Below are positions 17,627 through 52,143 of a DNA stretch of 64,000 nucleotides, one piece after another (position 1 is the first letter of the stretch; each line of letters starts with the position of its first letter). The stretch is taken from assembly GCA_019828595.1 (NCBI GenBank), contig JAHQRK010000008.1, positions 868,001-932,000 of the forward strand, written 5' to 3'. A program made the translations under genes and the position numbers. Origin of the DNA: Aphanomyces cochlioides (taxonomy: Eukaryota; Oomycota; Saprolegniomycetes; Saprolegniales; Verrucalvaceae). Under the pieces are notes generated by a model that saw only the letters and a program-made list of their open reading frames with translations, did no database searches and had not been told where the DNA came from.

Positions 17627-17636
17627 GTAATGGCAG

Positions 17637-17909
17637 GGAAGTGATAAAGGCACCACCCCAGGAGGTTAGCGGCACCACCCCGGTACTTAAATAAGGAAAT
17701 GTTTAGGGTAAATCTCCTCAGGGTATGCCCGTGCCAGCTGAAACTGCGCCGCCAAGCAGCTCCTGAGCCTGGCACGTCCTTCGCCACGGCAGAGCAGTAT
17801 GTACGTCTACCCTGTTCAACTACAACGCATTCTTGTTTAGGCTCCTAGGCACACAAAAGCAACATATGTTTCTTATTTAAGTACCGGGGTGGTGCCTTTA
17901 TCCGTCCCC
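17637..17909. mobile_element. 273-bp MITE with 10-bp target duplication, in the NRPS promoter
   Basis: GTAATGGCAG occurs at 17627-17636 and again at 17910-17919, directly flanking a 273-bp element. Its ends share GATAAAGGCACCACCCC (17643-17659) inverted at 17886-17902, and CGGTACTTAAATAAG also recurs inverted further in. A 9-10 bp duplication is characteristic of Mutator-type insertion. The element ends 74 bp before the NRPS ATG, so it sits in the proximal promoter or 5' leader. Confidence 0.8.
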
Positions 17910-17983: not shown

Positions 17984-20900
17984 ATGGATCCTTCCGCAGC
18001 ATCCGCCGCGACAAGCGTAGTGGATTCCCTGATGCTCAGAAGCAAGCCATCCGCAGCCCTCGATTCGGATACAACAATGAACATTATTTCTCATTGGCAA
18101 GGACGACATCCCCGAACCGAGACTTCCTTTTCGGTATACTACGTATCGCACTCGCAATCCTCCAGCATCCTCTCCCCTACGTCAGAAGCGCAGCAGCAGG
18201 TTGCCACGATCGATGACGATATTTCATTTGATGCGATCGCTGCTGCTTTTCAAGAGGTTGCCAAACAACGAGATATTCTTCGAACAACTTTTCTTCAAAC
18301 GCCTGATGGAGTCGTTCAGGTTATCAGGGTGGAGAAAACGCCACGACTTGGTCAAGGCATGTCCGTAGTGGTGTCGTCCATTGACCAATTTCTCGAAGTT
18401 GATCGGGCAAGTGGATTCAAACTTGGAGATGAATATTTTTCTCGCCTGACGGTTGTCATTACTCCTCAAGAAAAGAGACGTCTTGTTTTCACGACTCACA
18501 CAGCTCTGTGTGACTCCGAATCTGCTGCATGGATTTTAACTGACCTTTTGCATGCCGCTCGAGGAGAACCGCTCATTGATCGCTCATCTTACCAGCAAGT
18601 CGTTGATTGCATTCTTAGCCATAACGCTGAATCAAGCAAGGCCTTCTGGCAAACTTACATGGCTGACCTCAAAGCCGAAGCACTTCCGTCGATGGCTGCA
18701 TTCAATTTCAATAGTGCAACTTCGGATGTTTGCGCCTTTCCGCTTGCCATGCCTTTATCAGTTTCTGCGGCAGATCTAGTAGAGCGAGCTCAATTAATTG
18801 GAACAACTGCAGAAGTGCTGGTGAAACTTGCGTGGGCCACAACCCTGCGCAAGTACACTCGGACAAATGACACTCTGTTTTACCAAAGAGTTTCAAACCG
18901 AGCGCTTCCAATTCCAAGTGCAAACAGGTGAGCGGTCAGCTGTTGAAACTAAATATTCTAACTTTTGTAGGGCTGTCGGACCGTTTACTAGTACCGTTCC
19001 ATGTCGCATTCAGTTCGATGAATCATTCGACATTCGCGAGATGATTAGAACTGTCCACGATCAGCATGTCACCCTTGCTTCTCATGCTCATTCGATTGGA
19101 ACCGCTTTTCACGATTCTTTTGATACTGAAGCCGGTTTATTAGATACACTGTTCGAATTTGAATCCGTCTCGTCTCCATTGTCTGGAGTTGATGTACGTG
19201 TTCACTCGAATGATTATGCCTTCGAGTTACGTGTTGCTGCCGCGGATTCTGTTGTGAGCTGCAAATTTGATCCACAACGAATGCCCCGAAAACAAGCCAG
19301 CTTCGTGCTCAACGAATTTAATTTTACATTGAAGCTTCTGCTGGACACCGTTGTTGCTACTCGAGATATCTCCAGTCTCTGGCAGGTGTCACCAGAGCAA
19401 GAAGAGGCAATCCAACTGATGTGTCGTGGATCAACCGAGCCTCTTCCCTTCGATTTGCTGCACCATGCTTTTGAACGCCAAGTTTTAATTCGTCCCAAAG
19501 CTTGTGCAGTTGAGTTTGAAGAGAAACGACTGACGTACGCGGAGCTGAACGCTCACGCCAATACCATCGCAAATCGGCTGGCGTCCATCGGTGTCCAAGC
19601 CAACTCCCGCGTTGCCGTTATAATGGAGCGCTCTTTAGAATTCACTCTTGGTATGGTTGCGGTACTCAAAGCTGGCGGATCTATCATGCCCTTGGATGCC
19701 ACATTCCCGCCGAATCGATTGACCTATATGTTGAAAGATGCAGGTGCGGTGGCAATCTTGACAGCGCAACCTTACCACAACACCATGGAGAGCTTGGGTC
19801 TCTCTATTCCAATCCTAACCGTGAATGTGGTGGAGCTGACAAGTAACCCTGAATCCTATCGTCCAAGCCACGCGACCAATGCCGATGACGAAGCTTACAT
19901 TGTCTACACGTCAGGTTCAACAGGCAAGCCGAAGGGTGTCCCTGTTCTGCACAAAAGTGCTGTAAATACAGCTGAGTGCAGTAATTTGTTGTTCCCCACC
20001 GAGGGTCATCGTGTTTTACAGTTTTTGGCTATCGGATTCGACATGTGCCAATGGGACACCTGGGTAACACTTTCTTATGGCGGAACGCTTGTGCTTCGCA
20101 CCATTGATGCCTTTGAGTCTTTGGCCAAGGTTGACATGGTGATGCTCGTTCCAACAGTATTGTCTCTTGTGGGCCATCCACGAGAGTTTCCCAACCTCCA
20201 GTATGTTGCGGTGAGTGGCGAACCCATGCCAGCACCTTTGGCGGAACTGTGGTCAAATTACGTCACCTTTATTGAGGGTTATGGACCGACAGAAACGTGC
20301 CAGATTACCCATTTCGAAGTAGTAGTTCCAGGTCAACGTAAAACGCTTGGCTTTCCCTTCAAAAATGTGACGTGTTATGTGCTGGACGAACAGAAACGCA
20401 TTGTTCCGATGGGAGCTGTGGGTGAAATCTATTTGGGTGGAGTATGTGTGTCTCCATTTTACGTGAATTTACCCGAGCAAACAGCTGAACGCTTTGTTGA
20501 TGATCCATTTGAAGGTGGCATTATGTTTCGATCTGGTGACATGGGCCGCCTGCTTCCGAATGGAAAGCTGGATATTGCAGGACGCGTGGACAATCAAGTC
20601 AAAGTGAAGGGATATCGTATCGAACTGGACGAAGTATCGCAAGCAATGAAGCAACACCCAGATGTGTTGGTCGCAGTTGCTTTAGTCAAGAATAAAAACC
20701 TTGTCGGATACTACTCTCCATCGTCCGTAAATGTTGACGCCATTCGTGACGTCGTCGCACGTCAGCTCCCTGCTTATATGATTCCAGCAGTTTTTGTTGG
20801 ACTGGATTCCATGCCTCAAAACTCCAATGGTAAAGTAGACAAAAAAGCTTTGGAAGCAATCGATGTTCAGTTGAAAGTCAAAAGCTTGGCGACAGACGTG

Positions 20901-22540
20901 GAGACTCGTATGGCTCAAGTTTGGGCAGAAGTTTTGGGAATCAGTATCGATGATATAGGCCGCGACTCGTCGTTTTACGCTTTGGGAGGTGATTCCATAT
21001 CAGCCATTCGATTGGTGTCGAAAGCAAAGAGCGCTGGTTTCGTGCTCACAACAGTCCAAGTATTGAAAACTCCTGTGTTTCTGAATATGGTGTCAGCTGC
21101 CAAGTTTATTGATACTCAAACGTCAGCCAAGCGTGAGAGAATAGAAGTGTTCGGCAATGTGCCATTAACTCCCATCCAACACTATAATTTCTCGCACGAA
21201 TGGAATAATATTCATCACTGGAATCAATCAATCACAGTAAAGATGCGAAGGCAGCTGAAACAACAAGAATTAGAAGATGCTCTGAGGGCTTTGGAAAACC
21301 ATCACGACATGCTTCGTGCGCGTTTTCAACATTCTAATGAAACCGGATGGTCCCAATTTATTCTAAAAGAGCACGATACCGGGCGCCCTAACGTATCTTT
21401 TCTGAATTTGGAGTGCATGGATGATTTGGACGTGCAGATTTTGGCCCAAGAAAAATCCTTAAATCTTATCAACGGCCCTGTGTGCGCAGCGACAGTTTTC
21501 CAAACCGTGGATAATGTCCAGCTCTTGCATTTGACCATTCATCATTTACTCGTGGATCTCGTTTCGTACCGAATTCTTATTAATGATTTGCAAGCCTTAC
21601 TTGAGGGTAAACAACTCGACGAGAAATCTATGTCATTCAAGGAATGGTCCGAGCAACTATCGAATCAGTCGTCACAGTGGGATCCTGCTTTGTGGGACGA
21701 ATACATGTATGACGACGAAACACCAACGACACCCAGGTAATTTTACGTGCAGAATGATGTATAAATTAATCCTTCCGTGGTAGAACTGCAAAAGTCAGTG
21801 CAAAAGGCATTCTTGATGAGCATGTATCTTCGAAACTATCTGCTGCAAATCACCCGTACGGAACAAATGTCCAAGATTTGGCTTTGGCCGCGTTGACGCT
21901 CACTTATGCACAACTCAAGCAAGAAAAAGGTTCAATTGAAGGCTATTGTTTTCCATTGATGCTTGAGGGTCACGGTCGTGAGCCATGGCATGCCGATTTG
22001 GACATATCAAATACAATCGGATGGTTTACAAGCATTTACCCAATCGTTTTTACGGCAACAATGGATATTGATCGGCTTCTACGGCAAGTGAAACAAAAAC
22101 TTCGTTCCGTGCCGCATGGAGGGATTTCTTATGGCGCGATAAAATACTTGGCCCCAATGACAGATGCTACACGTTCTATCAAGTGCCATCGCAGACACAA
22201 TATCATGTTTAATTATGCCGGCTTGTTTCAGGAAATGAACTCGGCGAACAGTCTGTTTGATGTAATGGATGTCGTGAAAGACGTCTTGGGAGAGGACGAG
22301 CCCGACTTTTCGGCTGAAAACATTTTTCTATATCACAAAAATAATAATCTTGTGATCGAGGTAAGTTTGAACGACAATGTTCTGTCAGCAGCCCAAGTTC
22401 AAAGCATGGTTGACTTGTGGGTCGAATGGATGGCAAAAATTGTAGATTATTGTCTTGACACAAAAACCGTTGGTGGTCGCATACTTTCGGATGTGCCACT
22501 GCTAGCGTACAACGAAACATTGCAAAATGCTGAAGCTGAA
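17984..22540 (+). other. NRPS module 1: degenerate C, A1, T1, E1
   Basis: This would be the loading module. The first condensation domain (to about 19390) has THTALCDS where HHxxxDG is expected, so the catalytic second His is Thr and the Gly is Ser. It probably does not condense. A1 (about 19430-20860) has YTSGSTGKPKGV, FDMCQWDTW, GYGPTE and NGKVDKKAL. The pocket residues I read are D-M-W-M-A-S-G-Q-I-K. T1 has LGGDSIS near 20983. E1 (about 21150-22540) has IHHLLVDLVSYRIL, EGHGRE, IGWFTSIYP and FNYAG, all epimerase signatures, so residue 1 should be D. Confidence 0.85.
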
Positions 22541-25500
22541 ATACTATCGACGTTGCACTTACGTCCAGTGGACGTTGCTGATATGTATCCAGCAACGCCA
22601 CTTCAGACCGGTCTGGTTTTGGCCATGGTGAAAGATCCGACCGAGTATGTGCTTCAAAATATTTTTGATATTCGAGGCGATTTGGATTTTGAGAAATTTA
22701 AACATGCTTGGCACAAGTTGTCGATTCATGAGCCTCTATTGCGTACTGTATTTGTGTCGACAATATGTGGTATGGTACAAGTCGTCACGAAAGAGGATTT
22801 CAGCACTTGGACAATGTTGGAAGGTAAATGGCGAGAAGAGAATCTAGAAGCACAAACAAAGCAGTTTTTATTACAAGATCGCGAAAATGGATTTTCATTG
22901 TCGAATCTGTCGTATCACAGATTTACAGGAATACAAATCAACGGTATGAACAAATCTTGCGATTTCATTCAACCTGAAAATTTTAGATGGAAGCCTTCGA
23001 CTAATCTGGACAACTCATCATTCAATAATTGATGGATGGACCGGAAGCCTGGTTGCGCAAAAGTTGCGATCTATATGTCGGGGTGAAGCTTTCGTTCCCA
23101 GTTCAGTGTCTTTTAAGGATCACATCAAATGGTTGTCAGAGAGAGACGACACTAGCAGCAAGGAATTTTGGGAGCATTATTTACAAGGCATTGATCTCGC
23201 TGCTCCACTTCATTTCCCAAAACCTTACGAAAAAGTCGAGAGTGGACCAAAATATACTCTTATTCGTCAAATTATACAATTACCAGAAATCAACATGCTT
23301 TGTCGACAACTTGGCGTGACCCCAAGCAGTGTATTCCGGGCTGCCTGGGCTGTATTGCTTTATCAGTATACTCGTTGTGACGTGGTGAAATTTGGTTGTG
23401 CGATATCTGGTCGCGACACCAATATTCCAGGCATCGAAAGGTACGATCACACAGTTTGAAACTTTCCTCACGTAGTTGTAGCACTGTTGGTATTTTGATG
23501 AACACTATCCCTGTCATAGCTAAGTTATCCTCTGAGACTCTTGTTACTTCTCTGATATCATCGCTTCACTCTTCGTCCCTGGAAGTTATGCCTCACTCCC
23601 ATTGCGGTCACGAAGATATCAAGAAATGGTCTAGGGCTAAACTCGACCTTTTTGACACAATTATGATGTACGGTAGTTATCCTGAAGTAACCCCAGATCA
23701 TCACACAGCCTTTTCGATTAATTATCACGAGACCGATGAAAACGTCGATACGAATCTCGGCTTGGCTGTATATCCAGTTGAAAAAGGCTATCGCATTGAA
23801 ATTGGCGGGAATGTACGTGAGGTTGATCAGCGGATGTTTGACTATGTTACTGACCGTTTCGTTGAAATTGTTCGTCGTGTGGCATCATTGGAAGCCGCCT
23901 CTATCCCAGTTAATGCCCTCGACACGTTTGGTATAAGCGAGCGACAGGTGCTAGACTCGGTGATGGCTGGGCCAACAACTCCGCTGCCACATCGGCTGCT
24001 TCACGATGCTTTTTTGACCTGGGCAGAGCGCAGTCCAAGAGTGCCTGCATTAGAATTTGAAGGCGTGACTCTTAGTTATGAATCGCTGAATTTTCGGGCA
24101 AACTATGTGGCAAATCAGCTAGTCAAAATTGGAACGTCGCCGTCTGCACGTGTTGCTGTTATTATGGAGCGCTGCTTAGAATTTCCAATCGGCCTTCTCG
24201 GTGTTTTGAAAGCAGGTTGTACTATGATGCCTCTTGACGCGACCTTTCCAGCGTCGAGATTATCGTTTATTCTCTTAGACGCAAATGTTCAAGCCATAGT
24301 GACGACAACGTCGCAAACGCTCCAGATGCTAGAAATAGGTTTGTCGATTCCAGTGATTTATATCAGCTTGATTGATTCGGCAAGTGATACAATTACACCA
24401 ATTTCTCTCTCCTCACCTGACGATGAGGCGTATATTGTGTACACGTCTGGCTCCACCGGTAAACCAAAAGGCGTTCCTGTTCAGCATAAGGGTGCTGTCA
24501 ATGCTGTGCTAAACAGTGCATCCAAGATTCCGATTGAAGCAGGTCAACGCGTGATGCAATTTATGTCAATCGGCTTTGATGTGTGTCAATGGGAGATTTG
24601 GAAAACCCTCTCTAGTGGTGCAACCCTCGTCCTGCGTGGCACTGATCCCTACGGTACAGTAAAGACTGTTGATATGAGTATGTTCACGATCACTGCATTG
24701 ACTCAATTGGGCCACCCAAGTAATTATCCCAAACTAAAATGCATTGCAACAGGTGGTGAGTCCATGCCAACTTCATTGAAGGACTTGTGGAGTCCATACG
24801 TTCGTCTCGTGAATTGTTATGGCCCGTCAGAGTGCTCCATCACTACGCACTTTGAGATCATGTCAGTTGAGTCCCCAGTAATGATCGGAAGGCCCATCGA
24901 CAATGTTTTATCGTATGTGTTGGATGAGAACCAGCGACTCGTCCCAATTGGTGTAGTGGGTGAATTGTATCTTGGTGGTGTGTGTGTGTCCCAAGGATAT
25001 ATCAACTTGCATGAACAAACAGAACAACGATTTCTCCCGGATCCTTTTGCTGGTGAGAGCACGACTATGTTTCGAACTGGTGATTCCGCTCGCTTGTTGC
25101 CCGACGGCAACCTTCAAATCATGGGACGCTTGGACACTCAAGTGAAGGTGAAGGGGTATCGAGTCGAGCTCGATGAAGTTGCAGAAGCAATGATGCAACA
25201 TCCTCGAGTGATTTCAGCTGCTGCCATTCTAAAAAATAAAACACACCTGGTAGGGTACTTTTCCCCAGCCGATGTACCGGTGAATGAATTGCGACTTCTC
25301 GTAAGCGAACTCTTACCTGTATACATGGTTCCCGATATTTGGGTCGGATTACATTCACTGCCTGAAAGTGTAAACGGCAAGACAGACCGAAAGGCTCTCG
25401 AAGACATGGATGTGGTTATCGAAGTGGAAGACTTGTCATCGAGCAATGAAATTCTTTTGGCCAGAGTTTGGGCAGATGTACTTGACATAAAGTACGAAAG

Positions 25501-28500
25501 CGTTGGACGCACTACGTCGTTCTACTCACTTGGCGGGGACTCTATTTCTGCTATCCGTCTTGTTGCCAAAGCAAAGCAAGTGGGCCTAAATCTGACCAGC
25601 GCCAACGTCATGAAATTTCCAACACTTTCAGAAATGGCAGCAATTTCAAAAGATTACAAGCAGCAAAGAGATTTGGAAGAAACTCAGGTAGTCGGTCACG
25701 TCCCACTGACCCCTATTCAACACTTCAATTTCTTGCATCCATGGAAGAACGCAAATTTCTGGAACTTGTCATTCACAATACAACCACGCGAACCACTTGG
25801 TGTCTCCGATTTAGAGGAAGCCGTGACAAAGCTTGTGGCGCATCACGATGTGTTAAGAACTCGATTCTCGTACTCCGATTCGTCAGGATGGACCCAACAC
25901 ATCTTGGAAATGGATAATTTTGTCTTCTCGAAGGTCGAACGAATCGATGTATCAAGATTTGAGGAGTTGGAAAACGCTATTTTGGCGAAAGAAACGTCTT
26001 TGAATTTGGTGGATGGACCTGTGTATCGAGTGACCTTGTTTGTTGTTCCAGAAAATACCCGATATATTCATTTTACTTTGCATCATTCGATTACAGATTT
26101 GGTATCATGGCGCATTTTGATGGATGATTTGCAAACGTGTTTGTCAAAGAAGCCGTTGATGGCCAAGTCGACATCGTTCAAAGAATGGTCGGAGAAATTG
26201 ACTCAACAGGCGTTGCATTGGCATCCATCCAAGTGGTTGGAATTTATGGACGAAGATACAGTGGCGCCTGCAAATGCTTCAAGGTACGTTCTATAGTATG
26301 AGATACATCTGACGATAGTTTTGTGTACTTGTAGTTTTTCGCTTGTCAATACAAGAGGTGTACTGGAAGCTGAAGCAGCTTTGAAGCTCGACGCCGCCAA
26401 TCTGAAGTATGGGACGAATATTCAAGAAATTGCACTGGCTGCTCTGACAGGTGCTTGGGGGGAACTTCGAGGTGGTGATTGTCCGTTGCGTCTGATGATG
26501 GAAGGTCATGGTCGTGAACCATGGACCTCTGACTTGGATTTATCGAGTACGGTGGGTTGGTTTACTTGCGAGTATCCAGTTGTATTTTCTTCTTCTACAA
26601 ACTTGGCACATTTGTTGCGACAAGTGAAACAGAAATTGCGAGGATTGCCTGAAAAGGGGTTATCGTATGGAGCCATAAAATATCTTGTTCCTGATTCGGA
26701 CGAGATCAAATTCATCAAGGGGCATCGTCGACACAATTTATCGTTCAACTATATGGGTAAATTCCAGGAAGTTGGGTCAGGTAAGCGCATGTTTTCCATG
26801 ACGGAGGGTATTGATTTACCACAAATGGACTCGGATGAAGTGTCGTTTAGCCCAGGCTTGGCGAGTTTGCGTCATGTCGGTTCATCCTTGGTGTTGGATT
26901 TAGCGATTCCTGAGTGGATGTTGTCGCAAGCTGAGATTGAGAGTTGGTCCAAACTATGGATAGAATGGATGCACCGTACTATAGATCATTGTCTCGACGA
27001 GTCGACGATAGGTGGTCGCGTGCTTGCGGACGTTCCATTGCTCGGCTCATCGGATGTATTGAAGGAAGTCGAAGAAGGTCTTTTGGAGACTCTGAACTTA
27101 CGTCCGTTGGATATTGAAGATATTTACCCCGTGACAGGAATGCAGGCAGGTCTTTTATCAGCAATGATGCGTGATCCGAGCGAGTATGTGTTGCAGTCTG
27201 TGTTTGATATCATTGGTGACTTTGACTTCGAGCGATTGCAATCTAGCTGGAAGAAGCTATCTCTTGATATCCAAGTGCTTCGAACAGTGTTTGTGTCAAC
27301 TTCGCACGGAATTTACCAAGCGGTGACGAAGGACGATTTCAGTGAATGGCAATGGTTGGATGAGACATGGTCTGTGGATGATCTCGAGTCGAGAACGAAA
27401 GAATTGATGGTTAACGATCGTCTTCGTGGGTTTACACTGGCATCGAAGTCATTTCAGCGCTTTACTGGAATTCGTGTATCAGGTACGGTAAAATGTATCA
27501 ACTGCAGGTCATGTGTGTAATTTAGATGGTCGAACTCGAGTTCTATGGACTCAACATCACTCTTTGGTTGATGGGTGGACATTGTCTTTGATGCGCGATA
27601 GGCTGGTTCAAATTTGTTTCAACAAGCATGAGCGGGCGAATTTTATTCAATTCAAAAGCTACATTCAATGGCTTTCTAATCAGCCTCGAGACATGGGACA
27701 ATTGTTTTGGTCAAAGGCATTAGCTGATGTGAACAACGCTTCTTCATTATCGCTTGCGAAGCCGCATGTGTTGCCGTCAGATATGCGCATTAAATATCAA
27801 AAGGTGGAAACTCTCTTGAGTCTTCCTGACGTGACAAATGTTTGCCGACACCTTGGAGTCACTGTAAGCTCTGTGTTTCGTGCAGGTTGGGCAGTCCTCT
27901 TGAAGCATTACACAAGGAGCGATTGGGTTATGTTTGGCTCCATCGCTTCTGGTCGTGACAGTAATATTGATGGAGTGGAGCGGTAAGAAATGCTCTATTT
28001 ATTGATACTAAGTGTTTTTTAGGATGGTTGGAGTGTCTATAAATGCAATTCCAATATTGTCTCATACAAAATCAACATCCACGATACAAGACGCAATTGA
28101 AGATATGCACGCCTACTCTGCGGCGACTGTTCAGCACGCTCATCACAGCCTTCTTGATATCAAACAATGGAGTGGAATGACCGCACGCAAGAATTTCTTT
28201 GATTCTATAATGGGATATCAAAATTTTCCTGTAACTGAACTGGAAGCAAACACTGCACGCCCTTTTGCACTTGAGTTTCAAGTCGCAGAAGAGTTCGCAG
28301 ACTCAATGATAAGCGTCATCGCTGAGCCAGCAGGGCCAGATTATTCTGTGACTATCACCTATCAAACAAGTGAAGTCGATCGTTTTGTGGTTGAAACTAT
28401 GCTTGAGAGATACACAAGTATATTGAAGCGAATGGCCACAGTGTCAAATCTAAGTGAAACAATCGCGAGCCTCGACCAACCATCGCAGAGTGAACTTGGC

Positions 28501-40500: not shown

Positions 40501-43500
40501 TCGTGTCGAGCTGGATGAAGTCGCAGAAGTAATAACGCAGCATCCGTCAGTGAAGGAGGCAGCCGCTATAGTGAAGGATAAAGTACATCTTGTGGGATAC
40601 TTTACACCTGCAAACGTGGATATTGTTGAATTGGAAACGTTTGTAGCCAGCATGCTTCCTGTTTACATGGTACCAAGCGTGTGGGTAGGTTTGGATGAAA
40701 TGCCAATTAGTACGAACGGCAAGATTGACAAAAAGGCATTGGAAGCTTTGGAAATCGACATTTTTGTGGACGAGCTAGAATCCGAGCCCGAAAGACGCAT
40801 GGCTGAGATATGGGCAACCGTGCTGGAAGTAAATATTGCTGAGATTGGTCGCAATTCGTCCTTTTTCGCACTCGGTGGTGATTCTATTTCAGCTCTGCGA
40901 GTGATTGCAGAATGTGCTCGTCATGGCATAGTATCAACAGTTGCAGAACTGTTTAAGGTTTCAACGCTGAGTCGATTCACTGCCAGTACAAACAGTCAAG
41001 CTGATTGGAGTTGGCCTCCTGTGTCGGTGGCTCATGATGTAATCGATGAAATAGTCTCTACGTGGTCTGCGGCCCTCGGGCTAACTGATTTTGTTATCTA
41101 TCCTGTAACTCCACTCCAAGCGGGAATGGTGTATCAAACTATTCAGATGTCGACAGCGTATGTGATGCATTTGCCGATTGCATTGGCAGATGATGTTGAT
41201 GCCAACAACGTCATAAATGCTTTCCTGGAACTCGTTGGGCGGAACGAAATTCTCCGTACTACTTTTGTGACGACAACGAAGGGAATTTTTCAAATCATTC
41301 GACAGGATACGGAATTCTTTGAGGTCAATCAAGTTGCTGTTCCATCCTTGGATGACTTATTGGAGTCAACATATTGTCGCGGCTTTGCCATTGGTGATAA
41401 GTGCTTTTGCCGTTTGACAATTTTGACGACTCCTTCAGAACGTTATGCCTTAATGACAATCCATCATGCGTTGTACGATGGCTGGTCAACGAGCATGATT
41501 GTATCTGACTTTCTGAGCCTTCTTGACGGTCAAGAAGTGATAGATCGACCACCGTTCCGCAATGTGATTGACTATATTGAAGCACAAGACAAGGAAGAAA
41601 CTGAGTCGTTCTGGCGAACGTACCTTGATGGCGCGACTTCACACGATTTGACTCTTGGAAAGGCGGGTACTGAAGAATGTAACTCATCGTTGTCATTAAT
41701 TGCATCGGTGTCGATGAATGAGTTGACGGTTACAGCAAAAGAATATAGCTCGACAGTGGCAGTAATGGCTAAATTGGCATGGGCTGCGACACTGCGCAAA
41801 TATACCCGTTCGAATGGCGTGGTGTTTGGTCAAGTAATGGCAAATCGAGATATCCCAGTGTCAGGTGCAGAGAGGTGCGTTGGATGTATAATTGGCAGGC
41901 AATAATATCTTGCGTAGGATCTTAGGGCCACTCTTAAGCACTGTTCCATGCCGCGTAGAGTTCGATGACAAATCTTCATTATCTAGTCTTGTATCCATGG
42001 TCCAGGAGCAGCAAGGACTTGTGGCTAATCATTCACATGCCAGTTTGGTTGACATCAAGAAATGGTGTGGAGTTGAAGGCGACTTGTATGATACTCTTTT
42101 TGTGTATCAGAACCTACCAGATACACCAATGCAACCAGAATTTGAAGATGATGTTACTGCTTCCATTCAATACGCAGTAGACCATGCATTTGAACTGATT
42201 GTAGAACCCAATTCGACGAATTTGACTGTCCGATGTGCATTTAATCCCTCCAACATGACATGGAGAGATGCCCGATGGTTATTGGAAGAATATGATTACA
42301 CCCTGAAGCAAATGTTTATCACTATGGAACCCTCGAGTGAGCTTTCAGCGTTGTGGGAATTATCCAGCGTTCAAAATGAGGTAATTTTTTCAGCAACACG
42401 TGGTATCCACGCTGATTTACCGTTCTCGTTGCTACATCATGCGTTTGAAAAGAGATCTAGAAGTCACCCTGACTTTCCTGCGATTGAGTTTGAAGGCCAA
42501 AGCCTGTCGTACCGTGAACTGGATTCTACAGCCAACACGTTGGCAAGCAAATTGGTCGGTTTAGGAATTCGCTGTGGGTGTCGCGTGGCTGTGATCATGG
42601 AGCGGTGTTTGGAATTTCCTATTGGGTTGCTGGCCGTCTTGAAAGCCGGAGCTGCAATGATGCCGTTGGACGCTATGTTTCCGGCTGCTCGACTTTCGTA
42701 TGTGCTTTCAGACGCAAGTGCAGCCGCTGTGATAACTACTGAAGCGTATCGCTACCGCATAGACGAATTGAAGTTATCGATTCCTGTTGTGTACATCAAC
42801 TCTGAAGATTTAGCAACGAATCCGCTCGAGTATTCTCCGTCTTCTGAAAACATTGCCTCTCCAGAGGATGAAGCGTACATTGTTTATACGTCGGGATCCA
42901 CGGGTAAACCCAAGGGTGTGCCTGTCCTCCACAAGGGCACAGTGAATACGATGATGCATGGCACAATCAAATTTGATCTCGAGGGAGCTCGTATGCTTCA
43001 ATTTTTTGCCGTTGGTTTCGATGGCTTTCAGTCGGATATGTGGTCGGCCCTCACGCAGGGTGCGACTCTTGTACTTCGAAGCGACAATAATCTGGATGAC
43101 CTCTTGTCTACGATTGATATGGTAACAATAACACCAACGGGCTTGTCGCTATTGGGAGACCCCAATAAATATCCTCGACTCCGATGCGTCGGTGTTGCAG
43201 GTGAATCCGTGCCGACGTCACTGCGAGACTTGTGGGCAGATAAGGTTCATTTGATAAATTGTTATGGGCCTAGTGAAGGCAGTATGGGAACGCATTACGA
43301 AACCATTTACCCGGACAATGCAATTACCATAGGCAACCCATTTGCAAACGTAAATGCATATGTCTTGGATGATCTTCAGCGATTAGTACCAATCGGGGTG
43401 ATTGGTGAATTGTATTTGGGTGGAGTATGCGCTTCGCCATCTTATATTAATTTGCCAGAAGAGACAGCGACGAGGTTTTTGGCAGATCCGTTTACCGGTG

Positions 43501-46500
43501 GTCGTATGTTCCGTACGGGCGATGTCGCCCGCCTGTTATCGAACGGCAAAATGGAAGTTTTGGGTCGTCAAGACAGCCAGGTGAAATTAAAGGGGTATCG
43601 AATTGAGTTAGATGAAGTAGCCGAAGCTATGATGCAACATCCTCGAGTGACCACCGCTGCTGCGATTGTGAAGAACAAGACTCAATTAATTGGGTACTTC
43701 ACGCCTGCTAATGTCTCCACAGTCGAGCTACGCCAAACTGTAGCAGACATTCTTCCAACGTACATGGTGCCTAGTATATGGGTGGGATTAGATAACATGC
43801 CTCAAAACGTGAATGGCAAGACTGACAAGAAAGCTTTGGAAGCGATGGATATAGTGCTTGAAGTGGACACGCCTGAAACTGATGAAGAAAAGCAAATGGC
43901 ACAAGTTTGGGCCAATGTGTTGAATATCAATGTGGACGACATTGGTCGAAATTCATCTTTCATTGAGCTTGGCGGAGACTCAATTTCGGCAATCAAAGTG
44001 GTTGCTGCATGCAGTGCGCTTGGGGTGTCTATTTCTACTGCTCAATTGTTTAAGGGAGCCGTTTTGAGTAGAGTTGCTGAGATCTCAACCAAACTTGGAT
44101 GTACCATTTGGCCGTCTGTATATCTTGAAAAAGAAGTTGTCGATGAGATTACAGAATCATGGTCGAGGAAACTCAATTTAGATAATTTCATTGTCTATCC
44201 CCCGTCGCCATTGCAAGCAGGCATGGTGTATGCGACGTTGAATAACCCTTCCTCGTATGTAGCGCAAATGCCAGTGGTGCTTGAAGAGAACACGACGACG
44301 GATGCACTTATGACTGCATTTAAACAACTCGTGGAAAGACATGAAATCCTGCGCACTACATTTGCAACGTCCACCTCCGGTATTGTTCAAGTGATTCGAA
44401 GCGACATCGTTGGTCTGAAAGTCGAAACATCTTCGTTGGAACTGGAAAATTTCCTCTCAGATGATCTCGCTCGTGGCTTTAGCCTCGGTGACAAGTATTT
44501 CTGTCGTTTGACGATAGTGACTTCAAACAGCCAAAGGACTGCTATTTTGACATTACATCATGCATTGTACGATGGTTGGACTGTAGGAATGCTTTTGTCG
44601 GACTTATTGTGTCTCGTTCGTGGAGAAGAAGTGGTGGATCGTCCTCCGTTCCGCCGAGTTGTCGATTACATAGAAGCGCAAGATAAAATTGCTACACAAG
44701 ATTACTGGAGTACATACTTGTCTGGTGTCGTGCCGAGCCACTTGGCTGGAGCCAGCAATATTGCTTATAGCTCTGAAGGAGACAGTCGTCCTTTGTCCTT
44801 GGTTACGACTTTGCCGCTTGCGTCAATGATCGAAGTAGCCAAAAAGTTGGGAATTACGGTTGCCGTTTTCGTCAAGCTAGCTTGGGCTATTACATTACGC
44901 AAGTATACAAGATCAAACGATGTAGTGTTTGGGCAAGTCCTTGCAAACCGCGATATTCCCGTGCAGGGTGCTGAGAGGTATGTTTTCTGCTGATGCATCA
45001 TTGCTCATGATGAAAATTATTTTGTAGGATACTTGGTCCTCTCCTCAGCACGGTTCCGTGTCGTGTACAGTTCGATGATTCCAAGTCGGCCAAAGAACTG
45101 GCTTCAGTTGTGCAGTCTCAGCATGGTTTAGCGACCACTCATTCGTATGCAAGTTTGACTGACATAAAGCACTGGAGTGGTGCTGAAGCCAACTTGTACG
45201 ATTCCCTCTTTGTGTATCAAAATTTGCCTGACGTGCCAACTAATCCAAATGACGACGACAATGACGCGACGAATGAGCCAATTCATTCTGGTTCGGACAA
45301 CAATTACGAGCTCATCGTTGAACCTAATGGACAGATCATGAAAGTTCGTTCACACTTCAATCCGTCGAAATTGACATGGAGTGACGCTCGAAACATCTTG
45401 ATGGAGTTTGATTACTCTCTTACACAATTACACAATGTGGCCAAAAAGTCAGGTTGTGTGTCTGAATTCTGGCATCTTTCTCCCGAACAAGAGTCGTTTA
45501 TCCATTCAGCAACACGTGGTATCCACGCTGATTTACCGTTCTCGTTGCTACATCATGCGTTTGAAAAGAGATCTAGAAGTCACCCTGACTTTCCTGCGAT
45601 TGAGTTTGAAGGCCAAAGCCTGTCGTACCGTGAACTGGATTCTACAGCCAACACGTTGGCAAGCAAATTGGTCGGTTTAGGAATTCGCTGTGGGTGTCGC
45701 GTGGCTGTGATCATGGAGCGGTGTTTGGAATTTCCTATTGGGTTGCTGGCCGTCTTGAAAGCCGGAGCTGCAATGATGCCGTTGGACGCTATGTTTCCGG
45801 CTGCTCGACTTTCGTATGTGCTTTCAGACGCAAGTGCAGCCGCTGTGATAACTACTGAAGCGTATCGCTACCGCATAGACGAATTGAAGTTATCGATTCC
45901 TGTTGTGTACATCAACTCTGAAGATTTAGCAACGAATCCGCTCGAGTATTCTCCGTCTTCTGAAAACATTGCCTCTCCAGAGGATGAAGCGTACATTGTT
46001 TATACGTCGGGATCCACGGGTAAACCCAAGGGTGTGCCTGTCCTCCACAAGGGCACAGTGAATACGATGATGCATGGCACAATCAAATTTGATCTCGAGG
46101 GAGCTCGTATGCTTCAATTTTTTGCCGTTGGTTTCGATGGTTTTCAGTGGGATATGTGGTTGGCCCTCACGCAGGGTGCGACTCTTGTACTTCGAAGCGA
46201 CAATAATCTGGATGACCTCTTGTCTACGATTGATATGGTAACAATAACACCAACGGGCTTGTCGCTATTGGGAGACCCCAATAAATATCCTCGACTCCGA
46301 TGCGTCGGTGTTGCAGGTGAATCCGTGCCGACGTCACTGCGAGACTTGTGGGCAGATAAGGTTCATTTGATAAATTGTTATGGGCCTAGTGAAGGCAGTA
46401 TGGGAACACATTTTGAATTCATTTCATCCGGAGAAGCAATATCAGTAGGGAATCCTATCGCCAATGTCAATGCATATGTCTTGGATGATCTTCAGCGACT

Positions 46501-49500
46501 AGTACCAATCGGGGTGATTGGTGAATTGTATTTGGGTGGAGTATGCGTTTCGCCATCTTATATTAATTTGCCAGAAGAGACAGCGACGAGGTTTTTGGCA
46601 GATCCGTTTACCGGTGGTCGTATGTTCCGTACGGGCGATGTCGCCCGCCTGTTATCGAACGGCAAAATGGAAGTTTTGGGTCGTCAAGACAGCCAGGTGA
46701 AATTAAAGGGGTATCGAATTGAGTTAGATGAAGTAGCCGAAGCTATGATGCAACATCCTCGAGTGACCACCGCTGCTGCGATTGTGAAGAACAAGACTCA
46801 ATTAATTGGGTACTTCACGCCTGCTAATGTCTCCACAGTCGAGCTACGCCAAACTGTAGCAGACATTCTTCCAACGTACATGGTGCCTAGTATATGGGTG
46901 GGATTAGATAACATGCCTCAAAACGTGAATGGCAAGACTGACAAGAAAGCTTTGGAAGCGATGGATATAGTGCTTGAAGTGGACACGCCTGAAACTGATG
47001 AAGAAAAGCAAATGGCACAAGTTTGGGCCAATGTGTTGAATATCAATGTGGACGACATTGGTCGAAATTCATCTTTCATTGAGCTTGGCGGAGACTCAAT
47101 TTCGGCAATCAAAGTGGTTGCTGCATGCAGTGCGCTTGGGGTGTCTATTTCTACTGCTCAATTGTTTAAGGGAGCCGTTTTGAGTAGAGTTGCTGAGATC
47201 TCAACCAAACTTGGATGTACCATTTGGCCGTCTGTATATCTTGAAAAAGAAGTTGTCGATGAGATTACAGAATCATGGTCGAGGAAACTCAATTTAGATA
47301 ATTTCATTGTCTATCCCCCGTCGCCATTGCAAGCAGGCATGGTGTATGCGACGTTGAATAACCCTTCCTCGTATGTAGCGCAAATGCCAGTGGTGCTTGA
47401 AGAGAACACGACGACGGATGCACTTATGACTGCATTTAAACAACTCGTGGAAAGACATGAAATCCTGCGCACTACATTTGCAACGTCCACCTCCGGTATT
47501 GTTCAAGTGATTCGAAGCGACATCGTTGGTCTGAAAGTCGAAACATCTTCGTTGGAACTGGAAAATTTCCTCTCAGATGATCTCGCTCGTGGCTTTAGCC
47601 TCGGTGACAAGTATTTCTGTCGTTTGACGATAGTGACTTCAAACAGCCAAAGGACTGCTATTTTGACATTACATCATGCATTGTACGATGGTTGGACTGT
47701 AGGAATGCTTTTGTCGGACTTATTGTGTCTCGTTCGTGGAGAAGAAGTGGTGGATCGTCCTCCGTTCCGCCGAGTTGTCGATTACATAGAAGCGCAAGAT
47801 AAAATTGCTACGCAAGATTACTGGAGTACATACTTGTCTGGTGTCGTGCCGAGCCACTTGGCTGGAGCCAGCAATATTGCTTATAGCTCTGAAGGAGACA
47901 GTCGTCCTTTGTCCTTGGTTACGACTTTGCCGCTTGCGTCAATGATCGAAGTAGCCAAAAAGTTGGGAATTACGGTTGCCGTTTTCGTCAAGCTAGCTTG
48001 GGCTATTACATTACGCAAGTATACAAGATCAAACGATGTAGTGTTTGGGCAAGTCCTTGCAAACCGCGATATTCCCGTGCAGGGTGCTGAGAGGTATGTT
48101 TTCTGCTGATGCATCATTGCTCATGATGAAAATTATTTTGTAGGATACTTGGTCCTCTCCTCAGCACGGTTCCGTGTCGTGTACAGTTCGATGATTCCAA
48201 GTCGGCCAAAGAACTGGCTTCAGTTGTGCAGTCTCAGCATGGTTTAGCGACCATTCATTCGTATGCAAGTTTGACTGACATAAAGCACTGGAGTGGTGCT
48301 GAAGCCAACTTGTACGATTCCCTCTTTGTGTATCAAAATTTGCCTGACGTGCCAACTAATCCAAATGACGACGACAACAACGCGACGGAAGCGCCAATTC
48401 ACTCTGGTTCGGACAACAATTACGAGCTCATCGTTGAACCTAATGGACAGATCATGAAAGTTCGTTCACACTTCAATCCGTCGAAATTGACATGGAGTGA
48501 CGCTCGAAACATCTTGATGGAGTTTGATTACTCTCTTACACAATTACACAATGTGGCCAAAAAGTCAGGTTGTGTGTCTGAATTCTGGCATCTTTCTCCC
48601 GAACAAGAGTCGTTTATCCATTCAGCAACACGTGGTATCCACGCTGATTTACCGTTCTCGTTGCTACATCATGCGTTTGAAAAGAGATCTAGAAGTCACC
48701 CTGACTTTCCTGCGATTGAGTTTGAAGGCCAAAGCCTGTCGTACCGTGAACTGGATTCTACAGCCAACACGTTGGCAAGCAAATTGGTCGGTTTAGGAAT
48801 TCGCTGTGGGTGTCGCGTGGCTGTGATCATGGAGCGGTGTTTGGAATTTCCTATTGGGTTGCTGGCCGTCTTGAAAGCCGGAGCTGCAATGATGCCGTTG
48901 GACGCTATGTTTCCGGCTGCTCGACTTTCGTATGTGCTTTCAGACGCAAGTGCAGCCGCTGTGATAACTACTGAAGCGTATCGCTACCGCATAGACGAAT
49001 TGAAGTTATCGATTCCTGTTGTGTACATCAACTCTGAAGATTTAGCAACGAATCCGCTCGAGTATTCTCCGTCTTCTGAAAACATTGCCTCTCCAGAGGA
49101 TGAAGCGTACATTGTTTATACGTCGGGATCCACGGGTAAACCCAAGGGTGTGCCTGTCCTCCACAAGGGCACAGTGAATACGATGATGCATGGCACAATC
49201 AAATTTGATCTCGAGGGAGCTCGTATGCTTCAATTTTTTGCCGTTGGTTTCGATGGCTTTCAGTCGGATATGTGGTCGGCCCTCACGCAGGGTGCGACTC
49301 TTGTACTTCGAAGCGACAATAATCTGGATGACCTCTTGTCTACGATTGATATGGTAACAATAACACCAACGGGCTTGTCGCTATTGGGAGACCCCAATAA
49401 ATATCCTCGACTCCGATGCGTCGGTGTTGCAGGTGAATCCGTGCCGACGTCACTGCGAGACTTGTGGGCAGATAAGGTTCATTTGATAAATTGTTATGGG

Positions 49501-51693
49501 CCTAGTGAAGGCAGTATGGGAACACATTTTGAATTCATTTCATCCGGAGAAGCAATATCAGTAGGGAATCCTATCGCCAATGTCAATGCATATGTCTTGG
49601 ATGATCTTCAGCGACTAGTACCAATCGGGGTGATTGGTGAATTGTATTTGGGTGGAGTATGCGTTTCGCCATCTTATATTAATTTGCCAGAAGAGACAGC
49701 GACGAGGTTTTTGGCAGATCCGTTTACCGGTGGTCGTATGTTCCGTACGGGCGATGTCGCCCGCCTGTTATCGAACGGCAAAATGGAAGTTTTGGGTCGT
49801 CAAGACAGCCAAGTGAAATTAAAGGGGTATCGAATTGAGTTGGATGAAGTAGCCGAAGCAATGATGCAACATCCTCGTGTGAAGAATGCAGCAGTTGTCT
49901 TCAAGTCAAAGAAGCACTTGGTCGGTTATTACTCTCCATCTTCCGTTGATTCAGCTGAATTGCGCCAAACTGTGGCATATATTTTGCCATCATATATGGT
50001 TCCCGATGTATGGATCGGGTTGGAAGACTTGCCACAAAACGCGAATGGTAAAATTGACCGAAAAGCACTTGAAGCCATGGAAATTCATCTTGAAATTGAT
50101 GCGTTAGAAACTGAAGCAGAAAAACAAATGGCAGAAATATGGGCAGAAGTGCTAAATGTACCTGTGACGCAAATTGGGCGAAATACTTCGTTCACATCAC
50201 TTGGCGGAGACTCTGTTTCGATAGTAAAAATTGTCAGTTCGTGTCGCCGAGCGGGAATATCTCTTTCTGTGGCTCAAATTCTCAATGAATCAGTTCTTTG
50301 GCAAGTGGCTGCGATTGCATCGAAGACTAGGAAATATGCTGTCCAACCAAAGGTGGAAGTGGATGAGTCAATTGTGCGTGAGATCGAGTCCTCATGGTCG
50401 ACGAAGCTCCATGTGAAGGATTTCGCTGTTTATCCCGTCACAGGGACACAAGCTGATATGCTCCAAATGTCTAAACTGTCATCGTCATTGTATACGATTC
50501 AATCGACGTTGAAACTTTCCGAAGATATGACAGCAAATGATGTCTGTGGTGCATTTAAAACACTTTTGAATTCCCACGAAATTCTGCGGACAACATTTGC
50601 CGAAGTTGGATCAGAAATGTACCAAGTAATTCGAAGTGATGCTGACGATTTTGAGATGCCAATGACGACTGTTGAGACTCTGAACACGTACCTTGCTAAT
50701 GACTTGGCACGTGGTTTTACATTCGGCGAGAAGTATTTTGTGCGATTTGCAGTTATTACTGAAAGCTGCAATCGCGAGCATACAGCTGTCTTTACAATGC
50801 ACCACACTTTGTACGATGGATGGTCCTACGGCATGATCATGCAAGATTTTTGGCATGCTTTCATCCACAAATCAGTTCCATCTCGACCCGTCTTCCGGTC
50901 AGTTGTCGACTATGTGGAGGCAGATGCGTCGGCAGCAGAACAGTTTTGGCGAGCATATATGGCCCCCGTGCAACCCGTAGAGCCAATCGTCTTCCCTGAG
51001 GTGCAAGACGCTTTGGATGCTAAGGGTGACTTAATCCTTTCAGTCGACCACGACACAATTTTGAGGTCTGCCAAATTGATTGGCGTGCCTTTGACGATTA
51101 TCCTGCAATACGCTTGGGCTGCCACTTGGCGAAAATATAGCAAACGAAATGCTATTGCTTTTGTTCAAACCATGGCCAACAGAACGCTTCCCGTACCTGA
51201 CGCTGACAAGATTATTGGGCCACTCATGAATGAGTCGCCATTTCGTATTCGCTTTGACGATGATTCAATGCCTATAGCGACCCAGCTGCGTGTTTTGTAC
51301 CGTGAGGAAGCAAAACTCACGGCGCACTCGCATACGAGCCCATCGAGGATAGAAACCTGGTGTGGTACACCGCCTGGTCGTACCTTGTGCGATACTCGAT
51401 TTGTCTATCAGAATTTCCCACGCATGGAGAACTCAACATCCAGTGAAACTCCTCAATTCCAAGTCACCACTCGCAACAAAGAGCTTCTTCAGTCTGTCGG
51501 AATTGACACTGCAGCGGTCGAGGCTTCTCAGCAATCTCAATTTACTTACATGATTGGAATTGAGTTGAATGGCAACAATATCGTCGCCAAAGGTGTGCAT
51601 GACCCAGCCAAGATGAGTCCAAGCCAAGCCCAAGGAATTTTAAGCGAATTTGACAAGACTCTGCTTGACATTTTAGCAGCCACAAAGGCGTAG
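17984..51693 (+). CDS. Giant nine-module nonribosomal peptide synthetase (15 introns; 1-nt frame break in module 6)
   Basis: This enzyme would activate nine amino acids as adenylates, load them on carrier-domain phosphopantetheine arms and condense them into a peptide. The start is ATG at 17984 (A at -3, G at +4, MDPSAAS). The frame leaves and re-enters at GT...AG introns: 18928-18970, 21737-21783, 22944-22986, 23441-23481, 26284-26334, 27483-27525, 27983-28022, 31098-31140, 34201-34250, 37062-37112, 38261-38303, 38761-38800, 41875-41917, 44978-45027 and 48094-48143 (678 nt in total). The spliced length is one base short of a multiple of three, which independently agrees with the single missing C at 39365-39367. 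Counting that base gives about 11,010 codons. The domain order is C*ATE-CATE-CAT-CAT-CATE-CAT-CAT-CAT-CAT-C. All nine carrier domains keep LGGDS(I/V)S. There is no thioesterase or reductase. If the frame break is real, the protein stops in module 6 and the gene is a pseudogene; if it is an assembly error, the gene is intact. Confidence 0.9.
22541..27070 (+). other. NRPS module 2: C, A2, T2, E2
   Basis: The condensation domain follows an epimerase and carries THHSIIDGW. It has an extra phase-1 intron just before that motif. A2 (about 23960-25400) gives the pocket D-V-W-M-A-G-C-I-T-K with FDVCQWEIW and CYGPSEC. T2 has LGGDSIS near 25530. E2 (about 25690-27060) has LHHSITDLVSWRIL, EGHGRE, VGWFTCEYP and FNYMG. 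Residue 2 is therefore predicted to be D. E2 is the parent or sibling of E5, see the duplication entries. Confidence 0.85.
27071..30230 (+). other. NRPS module 3: C, A3, T3
   Basis: The condensation domain after E2 has QHHSLVDGW and the two introns typical of the post-epimerase class in this gene. A3 (about 28540-29990) has FDVCQWEIW, IGGES and CYGPSEC, with pocket D-V-W-L-T-G-C-I-A-K. T3 has LGGDSIS near 30100. There is no epimerase. This module is duplicated as module 6. Confidence 0.85.
30231..33330 (+). other. NRPS module 4: C, A4, T4
   Basis: The condensation domain has IHHALYDGW and one phase-2 intron after GAER. A4 (about 31640-33080) has FDGFQWDMW, VGGES and CYGPSEC, with pocket D-G-W-S-G-G-C-M-V-K. 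T4 has LGGDSIS near 33190. The outer scaffold of A4 is the template for A7, A8 and A9. Confidence 0.85.
33331..37850 (+). other. NRPS module 5: C, A5, T5, E5
   Basis: The condensation domain has LHHALYDGW. A5 (about 34750-36200) is unlike its neighbours: FDMCQWDVW, TAGEA and GYGPCETCIC, with pocket D-M-W-T-A-A-G-I-C-K. Seven of ten positions match the known phenylalanine code of GrsA (D-A-W-T-I-A-A-I-C-K), so an aromatic residue is a weak guess. The A10 motif reads NNKVDRMTL instead of NGKxDxxAL, but the Lys is kept. T5 has LGGDSIS near 36315. E5 has LHHTITDLVSWRIL and EGHGRE, so residue 5 should be D. Confidence 0.85.
37851..41005 (+). other. NRPS module 6: C, A6 (frame-broken), T6, a copy of module 3
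   Basis: This is a near-identical copy of module 3, offset by 10,778 then 10,777 bases. The offset changes because one C is missing from a CCCC run (28587-28590 in module 3, 39365-39367 here). The frame then reads into TGA at 39372-39374, at the start of the adenylation domain, while the downstream frame stays fully open. The pocket residues are identical to A3. Confidence 0.9.
41006..44110 (+). other. NRPS module 7: C, A7, T7
   Basis: The condensation and carrier parts copy module 4. A7 keeps the A4 scaffold but has FDGFQSDMW (Ser at the third code position), VAGES, CYGPSEGSMG and a THYETIYPDNAITIGNPF patch. The pocket reads D-G-S-T-G-A-C-M-G-K, identical to A9. Confidence 0.85.
42391..49862 (+). 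repeat. Tandem 3116-bp A-T-C repeat units (modules 7-9)
   Basis: The marker CAGCAACACG followed by TGGTATCCACG begins units at 42391, 45507 and 48623, exactly 3116 bases apart. It also occurs at 31614, in module 4. The third unit is partial and diverges after about 49862. Each full unit holds A, T and the following C domain with its intron, so one crossover adds or removes a whole module. Confidence 0.9.
44111..47215 (+). other. NRPS module 8: chimera of module 5 C and module 4-type A, T
   Basis: The second half of the condensation domain copies module 5 up to SATRG; the sequence then switches to the A4 type (IHADLPFSLLHH). A8 has FDGFQWDMW like A4, but VAGES and CYGPSEGSMG like A7. The pocket reads D-G-W-T-G-A-C-M-G-K. 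T8 has LGGDSIS. Confidence 0.85.
47216..50335 (+). other. NRPS module 9: C, A9, T9
   Basis: This repeats module 8 at a 3116-bp offset up to about 49862, then turns into unique sequence (from the MMQHPRV stretch through NGKIDRKAL to LGGDSVS near 50204). A9 has the FDGFQSDMW form, with pocket D-G-S-T-G-A-C-M-G-K. The carrier domain is the only one with LGGDSVS. Confidence 0.85.
50336..51693 (+). other. Terminal condensation-like domain of the NRPS
   Basis: The protein ends with a full condensation domain (MHHTLYDGW at about 50800-50826) and no thioesterase. In fungal synthetases a terminal C domain can release the peptide by macrocyclisation (family knowledge), so a cyclic product is a reasonable inference. 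Unlike all other C domains here it has no intron at the conserved site; the equivalent place reads PVPDADKIIGPL without interruption. The stop is TAG at 51691-51693. Confidence 0.8.
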
Positions 51694-52143
51694 CACGATT
51701 GCTAAAAATTACTAGTAATGTATATTAGATTTAATGAAATTGTGCAGGGGGCAACCGAGCTTAACGATCTCAAAGCTCTAGTTTGCAATATCATAGAAGA
51801 AACGTTTCGCACTCAATTTCAACTATGCTATATCCATCACCAATTACTCTTTGATAAATTCTGTCCATCAGTGTAGCCCAGTGCAGAGGAAGCATCAGGA
51901 ATTTCTGGAGATACGTTGGAGAGCAAGGAGAATTGTCATATCCGTTTGTCAACCTTGATCATGAGAAGAATCATACGGATAATAACACAGCTATCCGGTT
52001 ATAAACGTCAATTAATCCGGATAAGATTAATTATGCGGATATTCAGGATATCCGGATCTTTTATCCGGATAATTGCTTAATTTTTGGCACCAATCAAAAT
52101 GCTCGAAAAACTTATTGGTGGTCATTTTTGGTCAAAGGCAGGT
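51694..52143. other. Intergenic region with ATCCGGAT repeats
   Basis: Between the NRPS stop and the L1 start there is no gene. From about 51970 to 52072 the word TCCGGAT or a near form recurs several times in both orientations (for example TATCCGGATCTTTTATCCGGAT). The same word occurs near 10210 and 12220, so it may mark a small repeat family. Confidence 0.4.

Follow-up and report, generated by a model that had tools for sequence, protein, structure and literature searches.

A nine-module nonribosomal peptide synthetase gene in the oomycete Aphanomyces cochlioides, belonging to a family that also occurs in chytrid fungi and was probably acquired from them

We analyzed a stretch of 64,000 nucleotides (hereafter the window) from Aphanomyces cochlioides AC1031, a Saprolegniales oomycete described as the cause of sugar beet root rot (PMC11653986), and characterized the very large nonribosomal peptide synthetase (NRPS) gene that it contains. 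The window corresponds to positions 868001-932000 of contig C78 (window positions are counted from 868001), a 2.88 Mb contig in an assembly of 76.2 Mb and 94 contigs. Judged from its sequence, this locus is a real, very large multi-modular linear NRPS gene whose predicted mechanism is ordinary, and we are fairly confident in describing it as a nine-module member of a family that chytrid fungi have as well and from which it was probably acquired. The kind of enzyme is itself known; what stands out is the lineage, in which such enzymes have barely been described, the likely chytrid origin and the recent duplication of modules.

The gene (17984..51693, plus strand) extends from an in-frame ATG at 17984 to a stop codon that ends at 51693 and encompasses nine modules and 15 introns, with one frame break near 39360. 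The 17 open pieces of the plus strand at 17849-51693 hold nine AMP-binding, nine PP-binding and the expected Condensation (C/E) matches in Pfam, and the coding sequence, joined into one piece of 6951 codons and another of 4068 (the latter including the stop; overlap of 25 nt), amounts to approximately 11,000 residues. The first-pass annotation of this DNA had proposed a probable oomycete host, a protein of about that length, and nine adenylation (A), nine thiolation (T), three epimerization (E) and ten condensation (C) domains; the source organism, the lengths of the two pieces and the Pfam matches together with the motif reading bear out these proposals. Its further claim, that 15 short introns restore one frame, holds in part: 15 introns could be assigned, but the frame changes once near 39.36 kb, as discussed below. 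For the introns, one GT-AG candidate per joint was picked by hand from the listed candidates, giving lengths of 40-51 nt (18928..18970, 21737..21783, 22944..22986, 23441..23481, 26284..26334, 27483..27525, 27983..28022, 31098..31140, 34201..34250, 37062..37112, 38261..38303, 38761..38800, 41875..41917, 44978..45027 and 48094..48143, all on the plus strand). According to the flanking residues, nine of these introns occupy the same place in C1-C9, the E domains contain three, and another three are found in C domains that follow an E domain; 12 are in phase 2 and three in phase 1.

The domain order obtained by motif reading is C*-A-T-E, C-A-T-E, C-A-T, C-A-T, C-A-T-E, C-A-T, C-A-T, C-A-T, C-A-T-C, where C* is an atypical N-terminal C domain; all domains are on the plus strand and the ends of C1-C9 are approximate. 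Module 1 consists of C1 (18125..19300), A1 (19368..20906), T1 (20877..21092) and E1 (21090..22459), and module 2 of C2 (22514..23880), A2 (23909..25450), T2 (25424..25642) and E2 (25631..26998). These are followed by module 3 with C3 (27050..28440), A3 (28462..30018) and T3 (29989..30207), module 4 with C4 (30244..31540), A4 (31565..33118) and T4 (33086..33304), and module 5 with C5 (33338..34650), A5 (34678..36234), T5 (36205..36423) and E5 (36412..37776). Module 6 comprises C6 (37828..39220), A6 (39240..40795, with the frame break near its start) and T6 (40766..40984); module 7, C7 (41021..42320), A7 (42342..43895) and T7 (43863..44081); module 8, C8 (44115..45430), A8 (45455..47011) and T8 (46979..47197); and module 9, C9 (47231..48550), A9 (48571..50127) and T9 (50095..50313), after which the protein ends in a terminal C domain (50350..51690) that is the presumed release domain. 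The carrier serine motif GGDS is present in all nine T domains, and nine of the ten C domains, including the terminal one, contain HHxxxDG, with THxxxDS in its place in C1. The E-type motif HHxxxDLVS[YW] is found after T1 (HHxxxDLVSY), T2 and T5 (both HHxxxDLVSW).

The positions of the E domains are matched by the types of the C domains. When 77 C and E domains were placed in one tree (with no labelled D-donor C reference and no known starter C domain among them), C2, C3 and C6, each of which directly follows an E domain, form a clade of their own together with one A. euteiches domain (Shimodaira-Hasegawa-like approximate likelihood ratio test (SH-aLRT) support 100) and are the only C domains of the window in it; C1, C4, C5, C7, C8, C9 and the terminal C domain belong to another clade, with chytrid C domains (SH-aLRT 98). 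C domains are split by whether the donor is a D or an L residue, and the partition seen here fits this known split. The presence of E domains after modules 1, 2 and 5, with a distinct type of C domain right behind each, supports D residues at positions 1, 2 and 5. E1, E2 and E5 are separate from the bacterial E domains and share a group (SH-aLRT 97) with those of chytrids and with one unnamed protein. E2 matches a PvdL chain and then the chains of tyrocidine synthetase and gramicidin S synthase 1. In their later halves, E1 and E2 score 68.5 and 64.6 bits against TIGR01720, just below the cut-off of 74.2. Among solved structures, the terminal C domain matches bacitracin synthase 3 best (2e-21) and TqaA chains weakly (1e-6), and in the 77-domain tree it groups with Aphanomyces C domains.

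Specificity pocket codes were mapped by motif on the alignment of the nine A domains of the window, using the correspondence to GrsA positions. The codes are DMWMASGQIK (A1), DVWMAGCITK (A2), DVWLTGCIAK (A3 and A6), DGWSGGCMVK (A4), DMWTAAGICK (A5), DGSTGACMGK (A7 and A9) and DGWTGACMGK (A8). The A5 code shares seven of ten positions with the phenylalanine code of GrsA, and by this yardstick residue 5 is probably aromatic and Phe-like. Residues 3 and 6, and likewise residues 7 and 9, are expected to be the same because the respective pocket codes are. Under the predicted mechanism, each A domain would load one amino acid onto its own T domain, the C domains would join the loaded residues, E1, E2 and E5 would epimerize residues 1, 2 and 5 to D residues, and release of the peptide by cyclization or hydrolysis would fall to the terminal C domain; the atypical C1 may be vestigial. 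The product is likely a nonapeptide, cyclic or linear. A co-linear nonapeptide with D residues 1, 2 and 5 had also been put forward in the first-pass annotation and, the frame break aside, this prediction agrees with the domain order and the C domain clades.

The gene has grown through the duplication of blocks that are near-identical, with spacings of 10.8 and 3.1 kb. The sequence at approximately 25.7-34.7 kb recurs 10.78 kb further on (spacing 10,777 nt), and a further recurrence, at a spacing of 3,116 nt, involves modules 7 and 8 and the first part of module 9; some of the copied modules retain 99-100% identity in DNA. Modules 4 and 7 differ in 50 of 1,033 codons, of which 31 fall within the 104 codons of the pocket (positions 232-334; 5.0 expected, p 1e-20), and between modules 7 and 8, ten of the 26 differing codons are in the pocket (3.1 expected, p 4e-4; 870 codons compared).

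A second NRPS gene (C78:848134-867692, minus strand) is located head-to-head with that of the window and ends 18.3 kb upstream of its start codon. This inverted five-module copy is 98.9% identical to 18236-32075 and 95.7% identical to 46115-51871, and lacks a stretch of 14 kb that starts within A4 and ends within A8. Over approximately 19.6 kb it contains 12 frame-changing gaps in exons and three new stops, and 140 nonsynonymous versus 132 synonymous codon differences in 6,310 compared codons, which marks it as decaying. Model positions 172-220, the site of motif A3, are absent from its fourth A domain. Between the two genes, there is a 97-nt inverted repeat (96% identity) at 12920/15613. The window gene had been described as stand-alone, which does not hold given this neighbor and the larger arrays elsewhere in the genome; the description was also silent on the frame break, the near-identical modules and the affinity to chytrids.

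Several observations weigh against a straightforward reading of this locus as an intact gene for a co-linear, nine-module enzyme. C1 lacks the first His of HHxxxDG; apart from the A5 code, the codes of the window resemble none that we know, so that the respective residues are left unpredicted; the frame changes near 39.36 kb, at the start of A6; and the number of modules depends on an assembly with near-identical repeats. Use of the enzyme might not be co-linear: modules could be skipped or work iteratively, or C1 could load an acyl starter, and the product would then not be a nonapeptide. The long branch of C1 and its atypical motif point in this direction, but the types of the C domains fit the positions of the E domains exactly, as co-linear use predicts, and C1 itself falls among the C domains of Aphanomyces (SH-aLRT 93, in the tree without a known starter C domain); we regard non-co-linear use as unlikely, albeit a serious contender. 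The frame break raises a different issue, namely that this could be a recent pseudogene, with a protein that ends early in module 6, similarly to the decayed inverted copy nearby. At the break, the copies of modules 3 and 6 differ by one base in length within a short run of one base; both flanks are near-identical in DNA to module 3, with the offset shifting by one base there, and downstream only one of 844 compared codons differs between modules 3 and 6, synonymously. A sixteenth intron at this site was considered and rejected because every listed candidate (GT-AG, 20-130 nt) removes residues that are kept in module 3, so that the break is not explained by any of these candidates. Long-read assemblies commonly err by one base in the length of short homopolymers, which counts against a pseudogene, as do the single break in 33.7 kb compared to the 12 in the neighboring copy, the intact motifs (nine of nine carrier serines and nine of ten C motifs) and the identity of 90-96% to A. 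euteiches pieces. The break may be an assembly error or a real lesion, so that this copy may or may not make a full-length protein; a pseudogene appears unlikely to us. The number of modules might itself be an artefact of assembling near-identical repeats, the true gene having fewer or more. The copies at both spacings include stretches of 100% identity and the inverted neighbor has five modules, in line with this possibility; however, modules 4, 7, 8 and 9 mutually differ at tens of codons and therefore are not one sequence repeated by error, although modules 3 and 6 are almost the same. On balance, an artefact seems improbable.

The closest relatives of the nine-module gene come from its own genus. 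A. euteiches pieces are 95-96% identical to module 1, 92.5% over 1736 aa (from inside A2 to inside A3), 92% over 1346 aa (from A6 into C8) and 90-91% over A9 and the terminal C domain. When an exon of 1031 aa was used as the query (the best 120 of 5,761 matches, in proteins of approximately 567-1804 aa), the best A. euteiches pieces showed 84-88% identity and other Aphanomyces pieces 41-72%, followed by the chytrids Polyrhizophydium (47%), Chytridiales sp. JEL 0842 (46%), Batrachochytrium (42%), and Globomyces and Clydaea (34%), and then by bacteria and unnamed proteins (28-36%). A longer Aphanomyces query (best 120, approximately 987-3139 aa) added Irineochytrium, Zopfochytrium, Quaeritorhiza and Boothiomyces, with Dimargaris among the other fungi. 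With both queries taken together, four other Aphanomyces species carry relatives, and no other named oomycete is found among the best 120 of either query within these ranges of protein size.

Phylogenetic analysis of the A domains was performed on 69 rows (seven of the nine window domains) and on a wider sample of 68 rows (five of the nine; P0015, with no long A match, was dropped). The Aphanomyces rows and the unnamed protein P0066 form one group (SH-aLRT 100) that is nested inside the chytrid group, which suggests transfer from chytrids. Aphanomyces and chytrids together are supported at 100 in the 69-row tree and at 91 in the 68-row tree; in the latter, Dimargaris lies just outside this group (96), and an inner group of Aphanomyces, Batrachochytrium, Polyrhizophydium, Zopfochytrium and Chytridiales sp. 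JEL 0842 receives 100. The C domain tree has the same nesting with weaker support (88-98), and Dikarya, not bacteria, come next. In approximately unbiased (AU) tests, a single chytrid clade, a grouping chosen after a tree had been seen, was rejected with 24 chytrid rows from nine taxa (p 0.0018), and the placement of chytrids with Dikarya but without Aphanomyces was rejected at p < 0.001 (both tests of this split examine one split from two sides and are counted once). These results make it likely that the NRPS family passed from chytrids to an ancestor of Aphanomyces.

This conclusion has to be set against several results that do not favor it. In the smaller A tree, with seven chytrid rows, one chytrid clade was not rejected (p 0.22); the trees come from quick searches, with the rows other than those of the window picked by hand from the listings; and a query with a Polyrhizophydium protein returned, in the best 120 of 267 matches, its own species, bacteria and a few Dikarya, with no Aphanomyces and no other named chytrid, an outcome that may be explained by the pre-selection of candidates on shared words. 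The family could have come directly from bacteria, or have passed from Aphanomyces to chytrids. Two Mortierellales rows that fall among bacteria in both A trees indicate that NRPS do move from bacteria into early fungi, the test with seven chytrid rows is compatible with such routes, and the Globomyces and Clydaea proteins are as distant from the window exon as some bacterial ones. Against these routes stand the joint support for Aphanomyces and chytrids and for the inner group, the AU test with 24 rows, and the agreement of the E and C domain tree with the A trees, so that we consider them decidedly improbable. As for contamination by a fungal or bacterial genome, which the first-pass annotation had named as a possible refutation, its chance is practically negligible, and nothing turned up in its favor. 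The gene is on a 2.88 Mb contig of the A. cochlioides assembly and contains introns, relatives exist in four other Aphanomyces species, and the 60 pattern matches that one exon gave in prokaryote genomes all failed confirmation (in a search that finds close relatives only); the orthologous A. euteiches pieces also make contamination very unlikely. The phylogeny of A and C domains that had been suggested as a check places the Aphanomyces group with chytrid NRPS.

Chytrid origin being the preferred reading, the other NRPS loci of A. cochlioides suggest what the family might have become in its new host. An array at C78:2608617-2671331 contains 17 A domains (in 19 pieces) and seven E domains, and another at C29:16812-75167 contains 16 A and seven E domains; split pieces were counted once, both arrays include broken pieces, and these are counts of A domains, not gene models. 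Further Condensation matches are located at C29:204-263 kb and on C24, C30, C1 and C12 (a lower bound, with 88 of 155 candidates scored). Among the 16 A domains of the C29 array, all of which were compared, mean pairwise identity is 0.95-1.00 in 15 of 26 blocks of 60 nt and drops to 0.57-0.66 in a run of five blocks; identity is also reduced at some borders and in the two initial blocks (0.68 and 0.80). The main low stretch corresponds to codon columns 196-321 (about 126 codons), between motif A3 (184) and residue 331 (320), with further divergence in columns 0-32 and in the last few. Whenever the codes of two domains in this array differ (100 pairs), their pockets are less similar than their scaffolds (mean 0.575 versus 0.965), and the same holds for 92 of 93 such pairs in the array on C78 (0.584 versus 0.847; 15 of the 17 A domains, two split ones omitted). 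For the 27 different-code pairs of the window gene (eight of nine A domains, A6 omitted), the values are 0.64 and 0.66, with the pocket lower in 17; the excess of pocket differences is seen here for modules 4/7 and 7/8, so that the cassette pattern rests mainly on the two arrays. Weighing against it in the window gene, modules 8 and 9, which diverge past 46.7 kb and were compared over the 562 codons before that point, show no enrichment (three of ten differing codons in the pocket, 1.9 expected, p 0.28). Movement of pocket cassettes between loci was not shown in 14 same-code pairs from different loci (pocket 0.70, scaffold 0.71, pocket higher in five), and since identity is about 0.70 in both parts, the pocket types probably date back to the time when the loci separated. 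The scaffolds have probably been made alike within each locus, and the pattern is consistent with unequal crossing-over or gene conversion in which selection or exchange keeps the pockets distinct. Tentatively, and with somewhat less than even confidence, we propose that Aphanomyces took a giant NRPS family from chytrids and made it peptide-diversifying, with modules kept near-identical by recombination and pockets held apart or exchanged in a cassette-like manner. If so, new peptides would arise from shuffled pockets and from the number of modules.

The absence of visible partner genes within 64 kb, reported in the first-pass annotation, was upheld for the part of the flanks that was scanned: Pfam detected no NRPS partner domain in 36 of the 85 flanking stop-to-stop open reading frames (ORFs) of at least 90 aa, a scan that small exons may escape, whereas phosphopantetheinyl transferase (PPTase)-type domains are found on other contigs. 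There are six such ACPS-type matches, three in frames of 179-245 codons, which fit stand-alone PPTases, two in frames of more than 4,000 codons and one partial. The two long open frames are opposed to each other at C11:717339-724984, and our guess is that they are type I fatty-acid synthases. MbtH has no match in the genome (none of four candidates), and no thioesterase match lies near the gene, all three genome matches being on contig C6. None of nine FSH1 hydrolase matches falls in the window gene or in the NRPS loci at C78:2.6 Mb and on C29. Five FSH1-type serine hydrolase matches are arranged in tandem at C4:2241361-2246657, and a weak one (C1:225043-225342) lies approximately 9 kb beyond a small NRPS locus at C1:212-216 kb; FSH1 is fused to NRPS in chytrids and in A. 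stellatus. In the window itself, Rfam and tRNA scans found nothing. The left flank (1-17900) contains transposon-type remnants, namely DDE_3 (5955-6608, minus strand), SWIM (7453-8076, plus strand) and DUF7769 (2145-2537, minus strand, below the cut-off). Downstream, inositol monophosphatase pieces (53861-54686, plus strand) begin about 2.2 kb after the NRPS stop, and two 90-nt direct repeats (79%) occur at 56944-57225 in ORFs with no Pfam match.

Oomycetes are inferred, in an oomycete genome paper (PMC4594904), to make few secondary metabolites. Enzymes of 9-17 modules would open unseen chemistry in a genus that includes crop and animal pathogens; they would also provide a testable instance of very large genes moving from a fungus to an oomycete, together with a series of naturally exchanged modules and pockets, in a eukaryote, from which the evolution of assembly lines could be read. 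The main text, as far as available, of PMC5907361, PMC8780586, PMC3681718, PMC13327255, PMC5023847 and PMC11653986 (the first four on Aphanomyces and Saprolegniales) yielded no mention of NRPS in a search by term, and PMC2248709 is the only report on Aphanomyces NRPS found in a literature search that left out most subscription papers. The passages of this report describe three expressed NRPS-like unigenes of A. euteiches that have no match in Phytophthora, two of them with a condensation domain, and give no architecture, gene size, product or origin. A. euteiches pieces from the database show 90-96% identity to the window gene, and the unigenes may stem from this gene or from another.

Among known systems, the nearest named relatives outside Aphanomyces in the A, C and E trees are the chytrid NRPS of Polyrhizophydium stewartii, Batrachochytrium dendrobatidis, Chytridiales sp. 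JEL 0842 and Zopfochytrium polystomum, although the nearest three listed are 42-47% identical to the window exon. Three chytrid proteins and one A. stellatus protein carry a C-terminal FSH1 domain after the last carrier, an ending of the type reported for B. dendrobatidis (PMC2823734, in the part available), whereas the window gene ends in a C domain and lacks FSH1. Within oomycetes, the NRPS-like proteins of Plasmopara halstedii are likewise adenylation-thiolation enzymes but have two to four domains, with no multi-modular C-A-T chain described in the available part of PMC4594904, and the two NRPS-like proteins of Pythium insidiosum are 29% identical to bacterial DhbF in a table that gives no architecture (PMC5841299). 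Cyclosporin synthetase SimA of an ascomycete is, similarly to the window gene, one giant protein that grew by tandem duplication of modules, according to the pertinent passages of PMC2823734. In comparison with SimA, the window gene has module copies that are still 99-100% identical in DNA. In bacteria, NRPS for hormaomycin and for cyanobacterial peptides have reportedly undergone exchange of A subdomains, such that the specificity core differs while the remaining A domain is alike; the pattern described here differs from these cases in that it occurs in a eukaryote and involves arrays of 16-17 A domains.

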